Positions 25,160 through 63,326 of a DNA stretch of 64,000 nt are shown piece after piece. The notes below the pieces were generated by a model. The model did no database searches and was not told the origin of the DNA. It saw only the letters and a list, made by a program, of their open reading frames with translations. The position numbers were made by a program, and so were the translations under genes. This DNA is from Paraglaciecola sp. L1A13 (GTDB taxonomy: Bacteria > Pseudomonadota > Gammaproteobacteria > Enterobacterales > Alteromonadaceae): NCBI RefSeq assembly GCF_009796745.1, contig NZ_CP047024.1, forward strand, positions 1,240,001-1,304,000, written 5' to 3'. Numbering within the stretch: position 1 is the first letter of the stretch; each line of letters starts with the position of its first letter.

Positions 25160-26656
25160 ATGAATGATGTTCAAGACAGCGGTGTTAATACACGGCATTC
25201 GACAAATGGCATTGTGTCTTTATTTACCATCATAGTTTTATGGGTTGTTTTATTTTGGCAGGGTATCACCACCGCTGTCGATATATGGATCATTACAGAC
25301 ACTTTTAATCATTGCCTTTTTGTTATTCCTGCCAGCGTATATTTTATATATTTGAAGCGAGACCAGCTCGCATTATCAGCCGTTGAACCTAACTATTGGG
25401 TATTAATACTCTGTATAGCTAGTTGTGGGCTTTATGCCTTAGGTTTATCAGGTGGTGTACAATTATTTATGCACGTCGCCACTTTTACCTTCCTGCCGTT
25501 TAGCGTGTGGTTTCTGTTGGGCAATGAACAAGCAAAAAAGATTTTATTCCCTTTGTTTTTCATCCTCTTTTGCATACCCATCGGCGAAGAGCTTATCCCT
25601 GTTTTACAAGAAGTAACAGCCGATCTCTCTGTTATGATGTTGCAGTGGGTAAATGTCCCTATTTATCGCAGTGGGTTGTATATTGAAATTCCAGAAGGAC
25701 GTTTCCTGGTAGCTGAAGCATGTTCGGGAATTAGCTTCTTTATTGCGTCAATTGTTATCGGTTCCTTGTATGCATACATGAATATGCAATCCAGTATTCG
25801 TAGATCTGTTTTTGTCTTAATTTCGATTATCTTTCCTATTATTGCCAATGCGATACGTGTTTTCGGTATTATTTTGACCGGACATTTAACTAATATGGAA
25901 CATGCCGTAGGCGCAGATCATTTAATATATGGTTGGGTTTTCTTTAGTTTAGTTATTGTCTGTCTAATTGGATTAGGCGAGTTAATACGTGAGAAGTCAT
26001 CTCAATTAGTCTCTGATCCACAATATGTTCCTGCTAACAAAACGTCTGATCGTGACTATATCAAAGCATGCGGTTTTATCACGGTTCTAATGCTAGCGTC
26101 GTTAGGATGGTATCAAATTATTCTAGGGCAATTATCTGCTGAAACAAACCCACAGAAACTGCATAAGCTAGTCATACCTAACCACGGTGGATCAACGTCT
26201 TGGCAGCCAGAATTCGTTGATTACTTTGATAAGCAGCAAACGAGCATTAATTTCGAAGCGAAACAGATTGATCTTTATACAGTTTGGTATCCAAAAGGAC
26301 ATGGAGAACTGGTTAGTTACGCTAACCGTATGTACCTCGAAGAATCTTGGACCTTAGAATCAACATATTCTGCAAGTGGGCCCAACGATTTGACGTTTGA
26401 AGTAAGTCAAATTGTAAATTCCCGGAACGTTCGGTTACTAGGGTATTGGTATGTTATTGACGGAACTGTTTTTACTAATAAGAACGTCGCCAAGCTCTAT
26501 GAAATTTATCAGATTATGTTGGGACAACATGCTGGAAGTGGCTTGGTGATGATCTCGATGGAGAGCGAGTACAGCTCATTAGAAAAAGATAAAGAATTGT
26601 TCCATCGGATGTTAATTGACACCTTTTCGTCAATTAATCAGATATTTCCCAAGTAA
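25160..26656 (+). CDS. xrtA: Exosortase A fused to an EpsI domain
   Basis: A 498-residue polytopic membrane peptidase that recognises the PEP-CTERM motif and processes target proteins at the inner membrane. The N-terminal part (to about 290) has about eight helices and the catalytic triad: Cys188 in VAEACSGISFF, Arg233 in ANAIRVFGIIL and His254 in GADHLIYGW. After a further helix (about 310-325) comes an EpsI-like periplasmic domain (for example DLYTVWYPKGHGELVSYANR), so XrtA and EpsI are one polypeptide. The ribosome site is weak. Third gene after the sugar transferase and deacetylase. Confidence 0.93.
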   Translation: MNDVQDSGVNTRHSTNGIVSLFTIIVLWVVLFWQGITTAVDIWIITDTFNHCLFVIPASVYFIYLKRDQLALSAVEPNYWVLILCIASCGLYALGLSGGVQLFMHVATFTFLPFSVWFLLGNEQAKKILFPLFFILFCIPIGEELIPVLQEVTADLSVMMLQWVNVPIYRSGLYIEIPEGRFLVAEACSGISFFIASIVIGSLYAYMNMQSSIRRSVFVLISIIFPIIANAIRVFGIILTGHLTNMEHAVGADHLIYGWVFFSLVIVCLIGLGELIREKSSQLVSDPQYVPANKTSDRDYIKACGFITVLMLASLGWYQIILGQLSAETNPQKLHKLVIPNHGGSTSWQPEFVDYFDKQQTSINFEAKQIDLYTVWYPKGHGELVSYANRMYLEESWTLESTYSASGPNDLTFEVSQIVNSRNVRLLGYWYVIDGTVFTNKNVAKLYEIYQIMLGQHAGSGLVMISMESEYSSLEKDKELFHRMLIDTFSSINQIFPK

Positions 26657-56586: not shown

Positions 56587-59343
56587 TTAAATACTAGCAT
56601 TCAAGCGTGACAGTGTTTGTTTTTCCCTGTCGTTAGCTGGTTTTAATCGGTTTGATAACGTCTTCGCTTTGTCTTTACTGCCAGTACTTATTAGCACTTC
56701 GATTAAATGAAGTGTGACTTCATTATTTTGCGGCAAAGCTTCATGGGCTTTTTTAATATAAGTTAATGCATCACCATATTTTTTGTCGTGAAATAAAGCC
56801 CAGCCTAATGTATCCATCGCATAAGGAGACTCAGGATATATCTGAATCGCTTTCTCAGCGAGTTCTAAAGCTTGAGTTATGTTCCCTTGTCCAATCGCAA
56901 GAGTGGAATAGTTATTGAGCGTAACGAAATCGTTGGGATTAAGATCCAGTAAGCCTTTGTAATATACTGCTGCTGAATCAAGTTCACCGTTTTGAGCATA
57001 ATATTCAGCTATGTAGTGAATGTTCTTGAACTTGACTCGACTCTTGGCTGTTTGCTCCACAAGATACTTTCCGCCTAAGGGAACTTTACCTAATTGGGCA
57101 AGAGCTTTTGCTAGTGGTATGGCTGTGTCCCAAGAAGGGTCTTTTGAATAATAGTTGCTAAGCAGTTTGCTTGCTTTCTCGTATTCCTTATCATGTAAAG
57201 CGATCTCTCCTTCAAATAGCTCGAACATGGGGGAGCTATTACCTTGGGCTTTCATTTTATCGATTTTTTGCTTGGCTTTGCGAATATCACCCGCTCGAAT
57301 CAGTGCTCGTATATTGAGCACGGTCAGGCGCGGATCTTGCGGAATCGCTGTTTCAGCATTGCTAGCAACCTCAGCCGCTTCTGCTTGAAGTCCATACTGA
57401 TTAAGCAAATTAATCAACTTATTCCAACTAAGGGTATTTCTTGGAAAGGAGCTAACCAACGTTTGAAAGGTTGCTTTTGCATTTTTAAAATCATCCATCT
57501 CGATATACGTTTGACCAAGTTCAGATAAAACAAAAAAGTCATTCTTGGCTTCGATATCTTTTAATATGTCCAACGCTTTTCGATACTCACCTTGGTAGTT
57601 GTAAATCGTTGCTAACCCTACTTTAAGTTCTTGGCCACCGTTTTTATCGTCAGCTGCTTGATTATCCAATAATGACTTCAATAAAGATTCAACAGACGTC
57701 AGGTCATCTTGTTGTATGGCTAGATTAATGAGGGTGAGAACCAGTTGAAATTTGCCTTCGGCATTGTTTGACGATTTTAATAACGTTTCAGCTAAAGTAC
57801 GCGCTTCGTCAAAGCGCTTTTCACGGGCATTCATTAACATCAAAAAACGCATTGCAGGGTAGTTATCAGGCGCTAATTCAAGTGCTTGGTCTAGCTTTAT
57901 ACGTGCATTATTATCATCATTTAGTTGTTGCAGTAAATAGGATTCAAGCACTAAGCCGTCTACTTGATTTACTTGCTGCCAGCGCAGGGCAACAGCTAAC
58001 GCTTTTTTAGGTTCTTTTGCTTGCATATGTGCCTGAGCAAGTAAGTTCCAGGCGTCATTTAATGTTTCGTCTAATGCAATCGCTGACTCTAAACTCTCTA
58101 TCCCGGATTGGTCACCAGAAGATAATTTGACCAAGCCTTCGCGCAATAGTGTTACTGCGTTGTCAGGAGCACCTTCCTTTGCTTGGCCAAATAGGTTTTT
58201 GGATTCTTCGAGATCTCCCTCTCGAAATTTAATCATCGCTGCACTTTCCAGCAACGCCGATTTCTGCGCATCTTGACCTGAAAGACCTCCGAGTAGCTCA
58301 GCTAAATTACTCGTTTCACCCAATCTAATCTTAACATCGGCTAATAAGCGATTAGCCATATGGTCGCTGGGGATATTTCTGGAGGCTTTTGATAAATACT
58401 TATAGGCACTTTCAGTGCGTTCAATTTTGTATGCGCTAATGCCTGCAAGCAAGTTGCTTTGGGTGGTATCTATGCCATTTTGTATTGCGAATTCAGCAGC
58501 ATCGAATGCTTTTTTGTATTCCTCGTCGTTAATATTTACTTGAGACATCAACAAATTGGCGTAGGCACTGTTAGCATTTACTTTTAAAAGGCCATTAATA
58601 AGCGTTTTAGCCTTTTCCAGATTGCCGGCCTTGATCAATATTTCTGCCAGCTGAAATTGAATAACATAGTATTCAGGTGACGAGTTTACGACTTGTTCTA
58701 AAGCGCTAATAGCTGATTCGTACTCCTTTAATTGCGCTTTGATTAAGCCTGTAACGATCAATTTCTCGATTTTGTTGCGCGTTAAATCCTGAAAACTAGA
58801 CAAAAGTTCATTGGCTTGAGGGAAATTACCTTGAGAAAAATCATAATAGACTTGTGCTAATGTCTTATCGTCACCGATTAATGTTGAAAAATCAGTGTTA
58901 ATAGCTTCATTGTTTGATGCATTTTTCAAAATAGCTAGAAAAGTGAATAAATCTACCGTGCTTTGTATTTCGGCATCATCACTAGTGAAATCTTGTGTTA
59001 ATCGAATAAGGCGGTCGAAGTCATTTTGATAATAAATTGCTTTGACTAGAACGGGATAAATAAAATCAGTGGTTTCGCCTAATTCTAATGCTTTGCGAAG
59101 CTCTTTTTCAGATTCATCGAAGAAACCGGCCTCAAGGTAATAGAGGCCTAAGTTTGCCCGAGCATCTTTATTTTGTGGGGCTAACGCAATCGCATTTTTT
59201 AAGTCGAGAATAGCAGCTGAAGTATCATTGTTTTGGTACTGGGCCTTGGCCGCAGCGATATATTCTTCAGCCGACTTACTATCGCATCCAGTCAGTGCTA
59301 GCGCTGATAAAACGATAAAAGATGAAAGTGATTTGATGCGCAT
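56587..59343 (-). CDS. prsT: XrtA/PEP-CTERM-system TPR-repeat lipoprotein
   Basis: A 918-residue lipoprotein of the PrsT/TIGR02917 family. The signal ends at the lipobox ALTGC (Cys20). Tetratricopeptide repeats fill the rest, for example DTSAAILDLKNAIALAPQNK, NLGLYYLEAGFFDESEKELR, VTLNNYSTLAIGQGNITQAL and YAMDTLGWALFHDKKYGDAL. It is expected on the periplasmic side, serving as scaffold for polymer export or PEP-CTERM protein assembly. Length is as usual for the family (about 900). A perfect hairpin follows its stop. Confidence 0.95.
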   Translation of the reverse strand: MRIKSLSSFIVLSALALTGCDSKSAEEYIAAAKAQYQNNDTSAAILDLKNAIALAPQNKDARANLGLYYLEAGFFDESEKELRKALELGETTDFIYPVLVKAIYYQNDFDRLIRLTQDFTSDDAEIQSTVDLFTFLAILKNASNNEAINTDFSTLIGDDKTLAQVYYDFSQGNFPQANELLSSFQDLTRNKIEKLIVTGLIKAQLKEYESAISALEQVVNSSPEYYVIQFQLAEILIKAGNLEKAKTLINGLLKVNANSAYANLLMSQVNINDEEYKKAFDAAEFAIQNGIDTTQSNLLAGISAYKIERTESAYKYLSKASRNIPSDHMANRLLADVKIRLGETSNLAELLGGLSGQDAQKSALLESAAMIKFREGDLEESKNLFGQAKEGAPDNAVTLLREGLVKLSSGDQSGIESLESAIALDETLNDAWNLLAQAHMQAKEPKKALAVALRWQQVNQVDGLVLESYLLQQLNDDNNARIKLDQALELAPDNYPAMRFLMLMNAREKRFDEARTLAETLLKSSNNAEGKFQLVLTLINLAIQQDDLTSVESLLKSLLDNQAADDKNGGQELKVGLATIYNYQGEYRKALDILKDIEAKNDFFVLSELGQTYIEMDDFKNAKATFQTLVSSFPRNTLSWNKLINLLNQYGLQAEAAEVASNAETAIPQDPRLTVLNIRALIRAGDIRKAKQKIDKMKAQGNSSPMFELFEGEIALHDKEYEKASKLLSNYYSKDPSWDTAIPLAKALAQLGKVPLGGKYLVEQTAKSRVKFKNIHYIAEYYAQNGELDSAAVYYKGLLDLNPNDFVTLNNYSTLAIGQGNITQALELAEKAIQIYPESPYAMDTLGWALFHDKKYGDALTYIKKAHEALPQNNEVTLHLIEVLISTGSKDKAKTLSNRLKPANDREKQTLSRLNASI

Positions 59344-61283: not shown

Positions 61284-61312
61284 ACAAAAAAAGCCGGCAA
61301 GCCGGCTTTTCT
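61284..61312. terminator. Rho-independent terminator of the PEP-CTERM gene
   Basis: A GCCGGC-rich inverted repeat (AAAAGCCGG, loop CAAG, CCGGCTTTT) with A-tracts and T-tracts on both sides, so it can work in both directions. On the minus strand it follows the PEP-CTERM stop by about 20 nt. Confidence 0.88.
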
Positions 61313-61331
61313 TTAATAAAGTAATTAAACC

Positions 61332-62165
61332 TTACTTTTTGAATCTTTTACCAAGACCAAGACCTAAAAGACCAAGACCTAAGAAAGCTAAGCTTGCTGG
61401 AGCTGGTACTTTTAAACCAACAACAATGTTATCAAACTCACCAGCGATTCCAGATGAGATAACTTTGAAATTATCAAACGCTTCTGAATCAGAAAAATCA
61501 AGATTTACGTATGTGTTAGATGCAGGAGAGGTTTGGTTACCTGAGGTACCATTAAATTCTGCTAATAATGCAGTACCAGAGATCGAAGCTACTAATGTGC
61601 TACCTGAGTAAAACTCGAAGCTATTATAAGTATCAACTGAACCCCAGTAGAAACCTAAATAATTAATTTTGGCACCAATTAGAGATGTTTCAACGCTACC
61701 GATGTTAGTTAAGAAAGTTGAGTAGTCGATATCAACAAAGCTGTCTGTTCCAATAGTTTCAGGCGTTGTATATGCATAACAAGTGCTATCGCCAGCTGGA
61801 GCTGCAGCAACATTAGGAACTGAATCGTTACGAACACCAACTACACCTAGTGCACTTGGCGAGATGCCTAAGGGAGAGTTAACTTGGCAACCAGTTGAAG
61901 AACCTGCAATATTATACTGCGTATCGCCACCAGCACCTATTGGGTAAGCAGTTGCGCTATCGAACGTTTCAACAAAGTAACCATTTGAAACGGTTGCTGC
62001 AGTAATTTGGTTGCTTGCATCAATACGGCTGCTAGTTACGCCAGAACCGTCCGTAGCTATTTGGCCACCGAAAGTGATAGATGCTGCACTTGCTTGGCTT
62101 GCTGCGCCGAATGCTAATAAAGCGGCAAGAGTTACTAATTTTGTATTCTTAACTAAATTTGTCAT
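61332..62165 (-). CDS. PEP-CTERM sorting-domain protein (PAP variant)
   Basis: A 277-residue exported protein, the likely XrtA substrate here. It has a signal peptide (LVTLAALLAFGAASQASAA) and a Ser/Thr/Gly/Asn-rich mature region with few Cys, resembling a lectin-like beta sandwich (VDTYNSFEFYSGSTLVASIS). The C-terminus is a sorting domain: VPAPASLAFLGLGLLGLGL followed by the basic tail GKRFKK. The Pro-Glu-Pro box reads Pro-Ala-Pro (residues 254-256). A sigma-54-type promoter lies 46 nt upstream of the ATG and AAGGAA serves as ribosome site. A terminator follows, so the gene is monocistronic. Confidence 0.9.
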   Translation of the reverse strand: MTNLVKNTKLVTLAALLAFGAASQASAASITFGGQIATDGSGVTSSRIDASNQITAATVSNGYFVETFDSATAYPIGAGGDTQYNIAGSSTGCQVNSPLGISPSALGVVGVRNDSVPNVAAAPAGDSTCYAYTTPETIGTDSFVDIDYSTFLTNIGSVETSLIGAKINYLGFYWGSVDTYNSFEFYSGSTLVASISGTALLAEFNGTSGNQTSPASNTYVNLDFSDSEAFDNFKVISSGIAGEFDNIVVGLKVPAPASLAFLGLGLLGLGLGKRFKK

Positions 62166-62210
62166 GTGATATTCCTTAAATGAGACCAGAGATACTGCTA
62201 CAAAGGATAA

Positions 62211-62226
62211 AGCATTAGTTGTGCCA
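62211..62226 (-). promoter_or_regulatory. Sigma-54 promoter of the PEP-CTERM gene
   Basis: On the minus strand TGGCACAACTAATGCT matches the -24/-12 consensus TGGCAC-N5-TTGCW, with the invariant GG and GC exactly 10 nt apart. The expected start site is near 62200, leaving a leader of about 35 nt with an AAGGAA ribosome site before the ATG at 62165. RpoN with the PrsK/PrsR two-component pair is known to drive PEP-CTERM genes in other bacteria; those regulators are not in this window. Confidence 0.75.
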
Positions 62227-62483
62227 AGTTTAAAAACTCAATTAATATCAATAGCATATGTATTTTCTCGATTTTAATTATCAGGAAATGTAAATTTTAC
62301 TGACAACGGAGATTGTCCTCATCGTTACATATTAAAATGTAGCTGTTGTATTTGATTATTAGGTTACGACTACGTTAAAAATCATCAACAAGTGGGGTAG
62401 TTTAATTTCCGCAACACTATGGTGTATGGTGGATGGACCGACACTTGCCGAAAAAAAAGGGGGTGTAAAATTTTTTGACATTC
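62227..62483. other. Gene-free region between the PEP-CTERM gene and exosortase-associated acyltransferase
   Basis: Together with the promoter and leader it makes a 351-nt stretch without a gene. AT-rich, as expected for enhancer or activator sites upstream of a sigma-54 promoter, but no repeated operator was identified. A second, weaker sigma-54-like word on the plus strand lies at 62434-62449. Confidence 0.4.
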
Positions 62484-62510
62484 TGCACGACCTTAACAAT
62501 AGGCCGTGCA
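62484..62510 (-). terminator. Possible terminator after the exosortase-associated acyltransferase
   Basis: On the minus strand TGCACGGCCT pairs with AGGTCGTGCA (10 bp, one G-T wobble, 7-nt loop), 7 nt after the stop. The T-run comes only after 14 nt, so it is weak as a terminator. Confidence 0.35.
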
Positions 62511-62516
62511 TGTAGA

Positions 62517-63326
62517 TTAATTGAATTGTGTATTAACTTTCTTTTCGATGTTTTTAAGCATGCGCTTGAATCCAGGTGTCAGCCCACTCATTAGCAAGTG
62601 ACGGCTAATATAATAGGGTGCGCGTTTTCCGTGATATTCAACCACTGGGCCTACTTGCTGGAATGGAATACCTACGAATCTCAAACTGCGCGCCAATCTA
62701 GGCTCCATCATAACAAAACAATGCTTTATATCGTGCTTACGCGATGTTGATGCTGCACATAAGTACAACCCGACAGCAATAAATGGAAAGCAACGAAGCT
62801 CTCTTTCCGAATAGACGTGTTCGTTGATGGCACCTGTCGCTGACCCTTTGAATTTATCCGTCGCACGTTTACGAAATTGGGCGGGTACCGCTAATCGTGA
62901 TATTTCACATATTTCGCTACGCGGAAAATCACTGGGATGTACGGCGTCCTCAGCAATTGAACTAATACAATATTTTTCTATAGGCAGTAATTGTTCTTCG
63001 CTGTTGGAGCGCACGATCCTAACGGTACCTGCATATTCGCCGGTGGGGATATGTTTAATTAAACAATGGGTAGAGTGGCTATCGAAAAGGTCGGTTTCCA
63101 TTTCATCAGAGCGGACATCTTCAAACTTTAATTCTTCGCAATATACTTTATGTCTTATTTTATAACACTCGCTTCTTAGGTCGTCTGTCAAGGCGACAAC
63201 CGGGCTAAGGTATTCAGCGAAATGTTTAGAAATTTGGTTCGCTTTTTGACTGACGACCACATTCATTAATTTTTTTACCACTGGCCCAATAAAAGGCATT
63301 TCAGCGTATTTTCGAAGTTGCTTCAT
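62517..63326 (-). CDS. PEP-CTERM/exosortase-associated acyltransferase
   Basis: A 269-residue protein of TIGR03694, related to autoinducer-synthase and N-acyl amino acid synthase folds. LTDDLRSECYKIRHKVYCEE leads the domain, with TGEYAGTVRIVRSN, CEISRLAVPAQFRKRATDKF and CFVMMEPRLARSLRFVGIPF, a GNAT-like core. Such proteins occur with exosortases and may produce N-acyl amino acids, making the nearby patatin relevant. It lies 31 nt after the patatin gene on the same strand, so the two are likely an operon. Confidence 0.9.
   Translation of the reverse strand: MKQLRKYAEMPFIGPVVKKLMNVVVSQKANQISKHFAEYLSPVVALTDDLRSECYKIRHKVYCEELKFEDVRSDEMETDLFDSHSTHCLIKHIPTGEYAGTVRIVRSNSEEQLLPIEKYCISSIAEDAVHPSDFPRSEICEISRLAVPAQFRKRATDKFKGSATGAINEHVYSERELRCFPFIAVGLYLCAASTSRKHDIKHCFVMMEPRLARSLRFVGIPFQQVGPVVEYHGKRAPYYISRHLLMSGLTPGFKRMLKNIEKKVNTQFN

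Follow-up and report, generated by a model that had tools for sequence, protein, structure and literature searches.

In the accessible text of Haft et al. (2006; PMC1569441), a 17-nt sequence called motif 1 is predicted to be the binding site of PrsR, and the pair that it forms with a sigma-54 motif (motif 2) was found upstream of 99 of the 167 proteobacterial PEP-CTERM genes. Motif 2 lies 23-221 nt before the start codon there, and in over 65% of cases the gene forms a single-gene unit behind a long intergenic region. For pepA of Aquincola tertiaricarbonis RN12, the transcription start was mapped and dependence on RpoN1 was shown in 2023; a stem-loop lies between pepA and prsT, and prsT is independent of RpoN1 (PMC9850573). 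Control of PEP-CTERM genes by RpoN and PrsK/PrsR, which a preliminary description of the present locus gave as known elsewhere, is therefore on record, as a prediction in the first source (PMC1569441) and as demonstrated RpoN1 dependence of pepA in the second (PMC9850573). Among sigma-54 promoters more widely, an IHF site between enhancer and core is common (PMC7962754), and activation is reported to vary with helical phase in an NtrC/sigma-54 system that has two NtrC sites (PMC7408454).

The PEP-CTERM gene and its genomic setting

The window analysed here spans 64 kb of a single contig of 4.97 Mb, from base 1240001 to base 1304000. The closest relatives with a name are Paraglaciecola species, in a comparison that may leave out records of the window's own genome, and the genome is on this basis taken as Paraglaciecola-like. 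At 61332-62165 on its minus strand lies the gene for a 277-aa PEP-CTERM (VPAP-type) surface protein, which scored 62.9 bits against NF050191 (the Npun_F0296 exosortase-dependent family; cut-off 29). Its C-terminal PEP-CTERM segment, in which the motif reads VPAP, scored 18.3 bits against TIGR02595 (cut-off 16), and no Pfam family matched the protein at E 0.001. The upstream same-strand neighbour, 351 nt away, encodes a PEP-CTERM/exosortase-associated acyltransferase (62517-63326, minus strand; TIGR03694, 257.3 bits, cut-off 111.95). With this long intergenic region before it and a terminator-like hairpin with a T run after it (61286-61313, minus strand; -16.1 kcal/mol, z -3.26), which went unlisted in a rule-based scan that named no terminator, the PEP-CTERM gene has the layout of a single-gene unit.

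The genome also encodes the predicted regulators. Both prsK and prsR, which the preliminary description had named as genes to look for, turned up side by side at genome positions 3766734-3770136, about 2.46 Mb along the contig from the PEP-CTERM locus rather than beside it (PrsR, 695.4 bits, cut-off 502.6; PrsK, 589.6 bits, cut-off 300). The gene for PrsT, the PEP-CTERM system TPR lipoprotein, lies within the window (56587-59343, minus strand; TIGR02917, 457.9 bits, cut-off 312.2), so that PrsK, PrsR and PrsT are all present above their curated cut-offs. RpoN is encoded at genome 4287583-4289037 (505 bits), and an IHF-alpha gene exceeded its cut-off. The only exosortase found in the genome, by a single TIGR02602 match, was exosortase A (XrtA; window 25160-26656, plus strand; TIGR03109, 305.7 bits, cut-off 208).

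Motif 1 and the sigma-54 core element

A sigma-54 core promoter with its -24 GG and -12 GC could be read directly on the minus strand at 62211-62226 (TGGCACAACTAATGCT). As previously described, GG (62225-62224) and GC (62213-62212) are separated by 10 nt. The 16-mer ends 45 nt before the PEP-CTERM ATG (62165), within the published range for motif 2. Counting 12 nt on from the -12 C, the distance expected from sigma-54 geometry, places the predicted transcription start near 62200 (62200, minus strand), about 35 nt 5' of the ATG, and a ribosome-binding site, AAGGA, was read directly at 62173-62177 (minus strand); the earlier placement of the start and ribosome site agrees with this geometry. The beginning of the predicted leader (AGCAGTATCT-TGG-CT, 62183-62199, minus strand), a segment apart from the promoter and the ribosome site, is strongly conserved in four orthologues, and a similar AGCAGTA occurs near the corresponding place in several paralogous promoters.

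The -24/-12 match alone was not significant, because the pattern TGGCACNNNNNTTGC with up to two mismatches occurred 60 times in the window where 52.7 occurrences were expected, and the core TGGCACAACTAATGCT was one of three sites with a single mismatch. We therefore rejected the core element by itself, being at chance level in the window, as evidence for a promoter. Genome-wide, TGGCACNNNNNWTGCW gave 17 matches, against seven for the reversed pattern.

The core promoter becomes credible because motif 1 stands 62 nt upstream. This proximal copy, a predicted PrsR-binding enhancer (TGTCAGTAAAATTTACA, 62289-62305, minus strand), is 17 nt long and ends in TTTACA, and its spacing from the core falls within the published 32-92 nt. 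A second, distal copy (TGTCAAAAAATTTTACA, 62464-62480, minus strand) lies 175 bp further upstream and is probably an auxiliary enhancer. The two copies were the only exact matches within the 64-kb window, and both lie in one intergenic region. Using a first matrix that included the orthologues of the window gene and excluded the window gene itself, the pair of motif 1 and core scored 41.4; the next best pair in the window scored 9.9, and the highest score in 25 simulated windows was 24.5. Using a second matrix, built from 78 promoters of other PEP-CTERM genes, the site scored 38.4 and the next best 14.6. Similarity of the window protein to the 149 loci behind this second matrix is confined to a C-terminal stretch of between 24 and 116 residues, seen in 17 of them (E 0.001).

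With both matrices, we found no comparable two-part site elsewhere in the window, polysaccharide genes included. The preliminary description had noticed no equal site at the polysaccharide genes and had proposed separate control of the PEP-CTERM gene. The first observation is borne out, since the window pair is so far ahead of the next best under either matrix, and the proposal is well founded as an inference, given the lack of a comparable site and the terminator-like hairpin behind the gene. That description overlooked two activator sites, the IHF-like site described below and the hairpin.

Both motif 1 copies and the core stand out from less conserved upstream DNA. In three orthologous promoters the core kept 16/16, 13/16 and 15/16 letters and the proximal motif 1 kept 17/17, 16/17 and 15/17, whereas the other upstream DNA was identical to the window at 256, 152 and 164 of 315 positions (81%, 48% and 52%). 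The distal motif 1 matched at 17/17 in all three comparisons and is thus identical in four orthologues, the window included, at 174-188 bp from the proximal copy. A fixed helical offset of the distal copy was not supported, because the distance between the two copies varies among these orthologues (175, 174, 188 and 177 bp). A search for a second sigma-54 promoter served by the distal motif 1 found none (best score -0.8). Directly before that copy, just after the acyltransferase gene, lies a stable stem-loop (62484-62510, minus strand; -16.4 kcal/mol, z -3.41) without a clear T run.

Related promoters and the spacing of their parts

Exact motif 1 occurred 24 times in the genome and its reversed pattern 11 times. 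Eight of the 24 copies lay inside frames of 100 or more codons. Reading the C-termini of the genes behind the other 16, we assigned 11 copies to ten PEP-CTERM genes and one to a probable PEP-CTERM gene; the remaining four preceded another gene or none. Scored gene by gene, the pair exceeded the background maximum at 12 of the 17 PEP-CTERM genes tested, while three had no site and two were at background level; the space searched for the background was somewhat smaller than that searched for the genes. In two of the 12 (genes 1507163 and 893109), the proximal matches to motif 1 were only weak. Most PEP-CTERM genes of the genome are probably under the same regulator. Among the paralogues, two in tandem (genome 893109-895254) each have their own sigma-54 element. 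In another paralogue promoter (genome 1508206), the proximal matches are only weak and a near-consensus motif 1 lies at a distance of 135 bp from the core, which looks as though a distal copy had assumed the role of the proximal one.

The family set comprised 39 places, 36 of them with a core score of at least 16. At 29 of these 36, a sequence resembling TGTC-N7-TTTACA (9 or more of the 11 letters of the TGTCA/TTTACA form) stood 58-66 nt before the core. The first matrix was made from 29 promoters, namely 28 of these 29 and that of another gene in the genome, and excluded the window gene. Scores could be obtained for 30 of the 31 named family loci (L152 had no start codon), and 29 of them exceeded the background maximum, including 17/17 of those not named Paraglaciecola; the Paraglaciecola loci are partly those on which the matrix was trained, and several of the 17 are closely related to one another.

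Three loci of this genome carried similar sequences. Locus L107 (genome 2237450) has a motif 1 and, 74 bp away, a sigma-54-like element in phase with the spacings described below; its gene encodes a 272-aa protein without PEP-CTERM, with a C-terminus that reads as winged-helix-like, and it is a possible PrsR target outside the PEP-CTERM class. L116 and L121 (genome 3195316 and 4914792) have PrsR-type motifs upstream of PEP-CTERM-like genes whose ends read as SAPA-type; neither gene was listed in the TIGR02595 search at E 0.1.

We then turned to 80 further PEP-CTERM loci at the order level, 79 of them usable (one lacked a start codon). Their regions were a selection from the matches listed, made on contig size, strand and frame length while the promoters were still unseen. 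Motif 1 was allowed at most one mismatch, spacing was free from 25 to 110, and the nearest copy was used where several preceded one core. Both motifs were present in 54 of the 79 usable loci, at spacings of 32, 42, 50-52, 59, 61-64, 73-74, 84 and 86, with the gaps between them empty; one pair below threshold had a spacing of 80 (L250). The 16 values outside 59-66 deviated on average by 0.84 bp from a ladder of 62.5 + 10.5k, against 2.62 expected. A class-level set of 69 loci from other families of the class, made up of 40 regions picked in the same way from the matches listed and 29 whose sequences came with that listing, was searched by a rule that made no use of the first matrix. It yielded 32 promoters with spacings of 41, 52-54, 60-63, 71, 73-75, 85, 95, 101 and 105; in 11 of the 49 loci that had motif 1, the range searched contained no GG-N10-GC. 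In the combined data, 78 of the 148 usable loci carried both motifs and 70 had no pair at these thresholds, and the spacings fitted 62.42 + 10.57k bp with a residual SD of 1.16 bp. These values, for which relatedness was only partly controlled, indicate a motif 1-core distance that is quantised across the sampled sequences, one helical turn per step.

The spacer itself holds a further conserved element. Aligning 37 promoters with spacings of 61-64 on the core revealed a conserved YAA-N4-TTGA followed by A/T about 32 bp upstream, the reverse complement of the IHF consensus. In the window, the IHF-like site TATGCTATTGATA (62246-62258, minus strand) lies between the activator site and the core, matches 8 of 9 consensus positions and has the offset of the class peak, -32 from the T of TGGC. 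At a threshold of at least 7 of 9 positions, matches were found in 28 of the 37 discovery promoters, 8 of 16 off-peak promoters and 28 of 30 family promoters (29 family places including the window, plus one other gene of this genome, all related by descent), as against 2.35, 0.85 and 1.64, respectively, in shuffles. When the sets were pooled, 63 of 83 promoters matched in the bin at the 32-bp offset and at most 16 in any other bin; in distant families of the class, 16 of 32 promoters had the site. Among 33 off-peak promoters, 16 carried the site at the offset fixed to the core and four at the offset fixed to motif 1. We accordingly rejected the idea that the IHF site keeps its distance from motif 1 instead of from the core, and the spacer appears to have gained or lost whole turns on the motif 1 side of the IHF-like site. 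The element is a probable DNA-bending site.

Alternative readings, proposed mechanism and relation to known systems

The ladder of spacings might reflect shared descent or a bias of motif finding and no helical requirement. Related promoters do have common spacings, and the first matrix was trained on spacings of 58-66. At a stricter threshold for the class set, which left 10 off-peak values, a period of 15.4 fitted best (the mean distance from the 10.5 ladder was 1.10), and the value 101 lies off the ladder. However, the spacings had been searched freely from 25 to 110, and taking one promoter per protein cluster still gave a mean distance of 0.83 bp against 2.62 expected (15 off-peak values). 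The second set, from other families and under a matrix-free rule, repeated the ladder at 0.95 bp for 19 off-peak values. Shuffled downstream DNA gave a mean of 1.0 such promoter (at most 5) against 78, with a mean distance of 2.67 bp, and uniform spacings fitted in the same way left a residual SD of 3.05, the lowest among 2000 such fits being 2.53, compared with 1.16 in the data. We regard descent or bias as a very unlikely source of the ladder.

Two other readings concern the window promoter. That another NtrC-family activator drives a real sigma-54 promoter here in place of PrsR is very unlikely in our judgement. Other activators of the PrsR type do exist, since the PrsR model matches the genome at 23 places or more, just one of which, among the matches listed, exceeded the cut-off; and in the published work accessible to us PrsR as the binder of motif 1 is itself a prediction. 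Yet PrsR is reported to have the same phylogenetic profile as the motif pair (PMC1569441), and PrsR was over the cut-off in 21 of 22 genomes of the genus, this one included; the 22nd, a draft of 84% completeness, had a partial match. We give still less credence, indeed hardly any, to a sigma-70 promoter (TTGTCA-18-GATAAT, 62306-62277, minus strand) that drives the gene and leaves the sigma-54 element incidental. It fits 10 of 12 consensus positions, but four sigma-70-like sites were found where shuffles of the region gave 3.8, and its -35 hexamer overlaps motif 1. The overlapping sigma-70 promoter was rejected: its -10 hexamer is not kept in three orthologues, in which motif 1 and the core are.

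The reading that we hold with high confidence is thus a PrsR-dependent sigma-54 promoter driving a single exosortase A substrate gene, and by its sequence features the site belongs to the PrsR/sigma-54 PEP-CTERM promoter class of Haft et al. (2006). Dependence on RpoN and PrsR in this organism is what we infer from its parts, which follow in the order motif 1, IHF-like site, -24/-12 element, short leader, gene and terminator-like hairpin. In the mechanism that we propose, the kinase PrsK would phosphorylate PrsR, which would assemble on the 17-bp motif 1, perhaps with help from the distal copy. IHF would bend the 62-bp spacer and close the loop, much as at IHF-assisted sigma-54 promoters, of which the nif promoters are examples. 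PrsR, on one helix face, would contact and remodel the closed complex of sigma-54 RNA polymerase, and transcription would begin near 62200. The surface protein would then be made in response to a PrsK signal, whatever the state of the window's polysaccharide genes; the exosortase substrate would be tied to a dedicated two-component switch that leaves those genes outside.

It also seems likely that the Gammaproteobacteria PrsR regulon amounts to a natural spacing experiment, in which the enhancer nearly always stands at whole turns and IHF is locked to the core. This reading has about eight distances (62.4 + 10.57k bp, k from -3 to 4) and places the IHF bend some 20-32 bp upstream of the core. 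Whole-turn spacing with a core-locked IHF site would mean that PrsR acts only from one helix face; if so, PrsR works via a short IHF-closed loop and not as a freely tethered enhancer. The spacing rule should ease the finding of PrsR targets from sequence, including PEP-CTERM genes missed by protein models.

The locus resembles the class of Haft et al. (PMC1569441), as described in the accessible text, in its motif 1 ending in TTTACA, its spacer, its sigma-54 motif 2, its layout as a single-gene unit behind a long intergenic region, and a genome that encodes PrsK, PrsR and PrsT. Some promoters of that class have more than one motif 1, as does the one here, and the spacer reported there (mean 62.8, SD 10.6, range 32-92) is compatible with the ladder. 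IHF did not appear in a term search of the text obtained from that paper, in which 'helical' occurred solely in a reference. We found no report of helical spacing or of IHF at PEP-CTERM promoters in the open-licence literature, as far as its texts were accessible, which is weak evidence of absence; helical quantisation and a core-locked IHF-like site go beyond what is in print as far as that literature goes.

With Aquincola pepA (PMC9850573), the locus shares a PEP-CTERM gene near prsT, a predicted upstream enhancer and a stem-loop after the gene, and the -24/-12 element of pepA, TGGCAC / CTGCTT, is likewise of the sigma-54 type. The start and the RpoN1 dependence of pepA are experimental findings, whereas here both are predicted purely from sequence. 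IHF-assisted sigma-54 promoters have the same order of activator, IHF and core, with other activators and genes (PMC7962754). The NtrC study (PMC7408454) concerned one experimental system; the present data are a natural series of spacings across one regulon, drawn from genome sequences only. The ladder and the fixed IHF-like site would thereby provide a precise rule for one large regulon, going beyond general sigma-54 enhancer looping.
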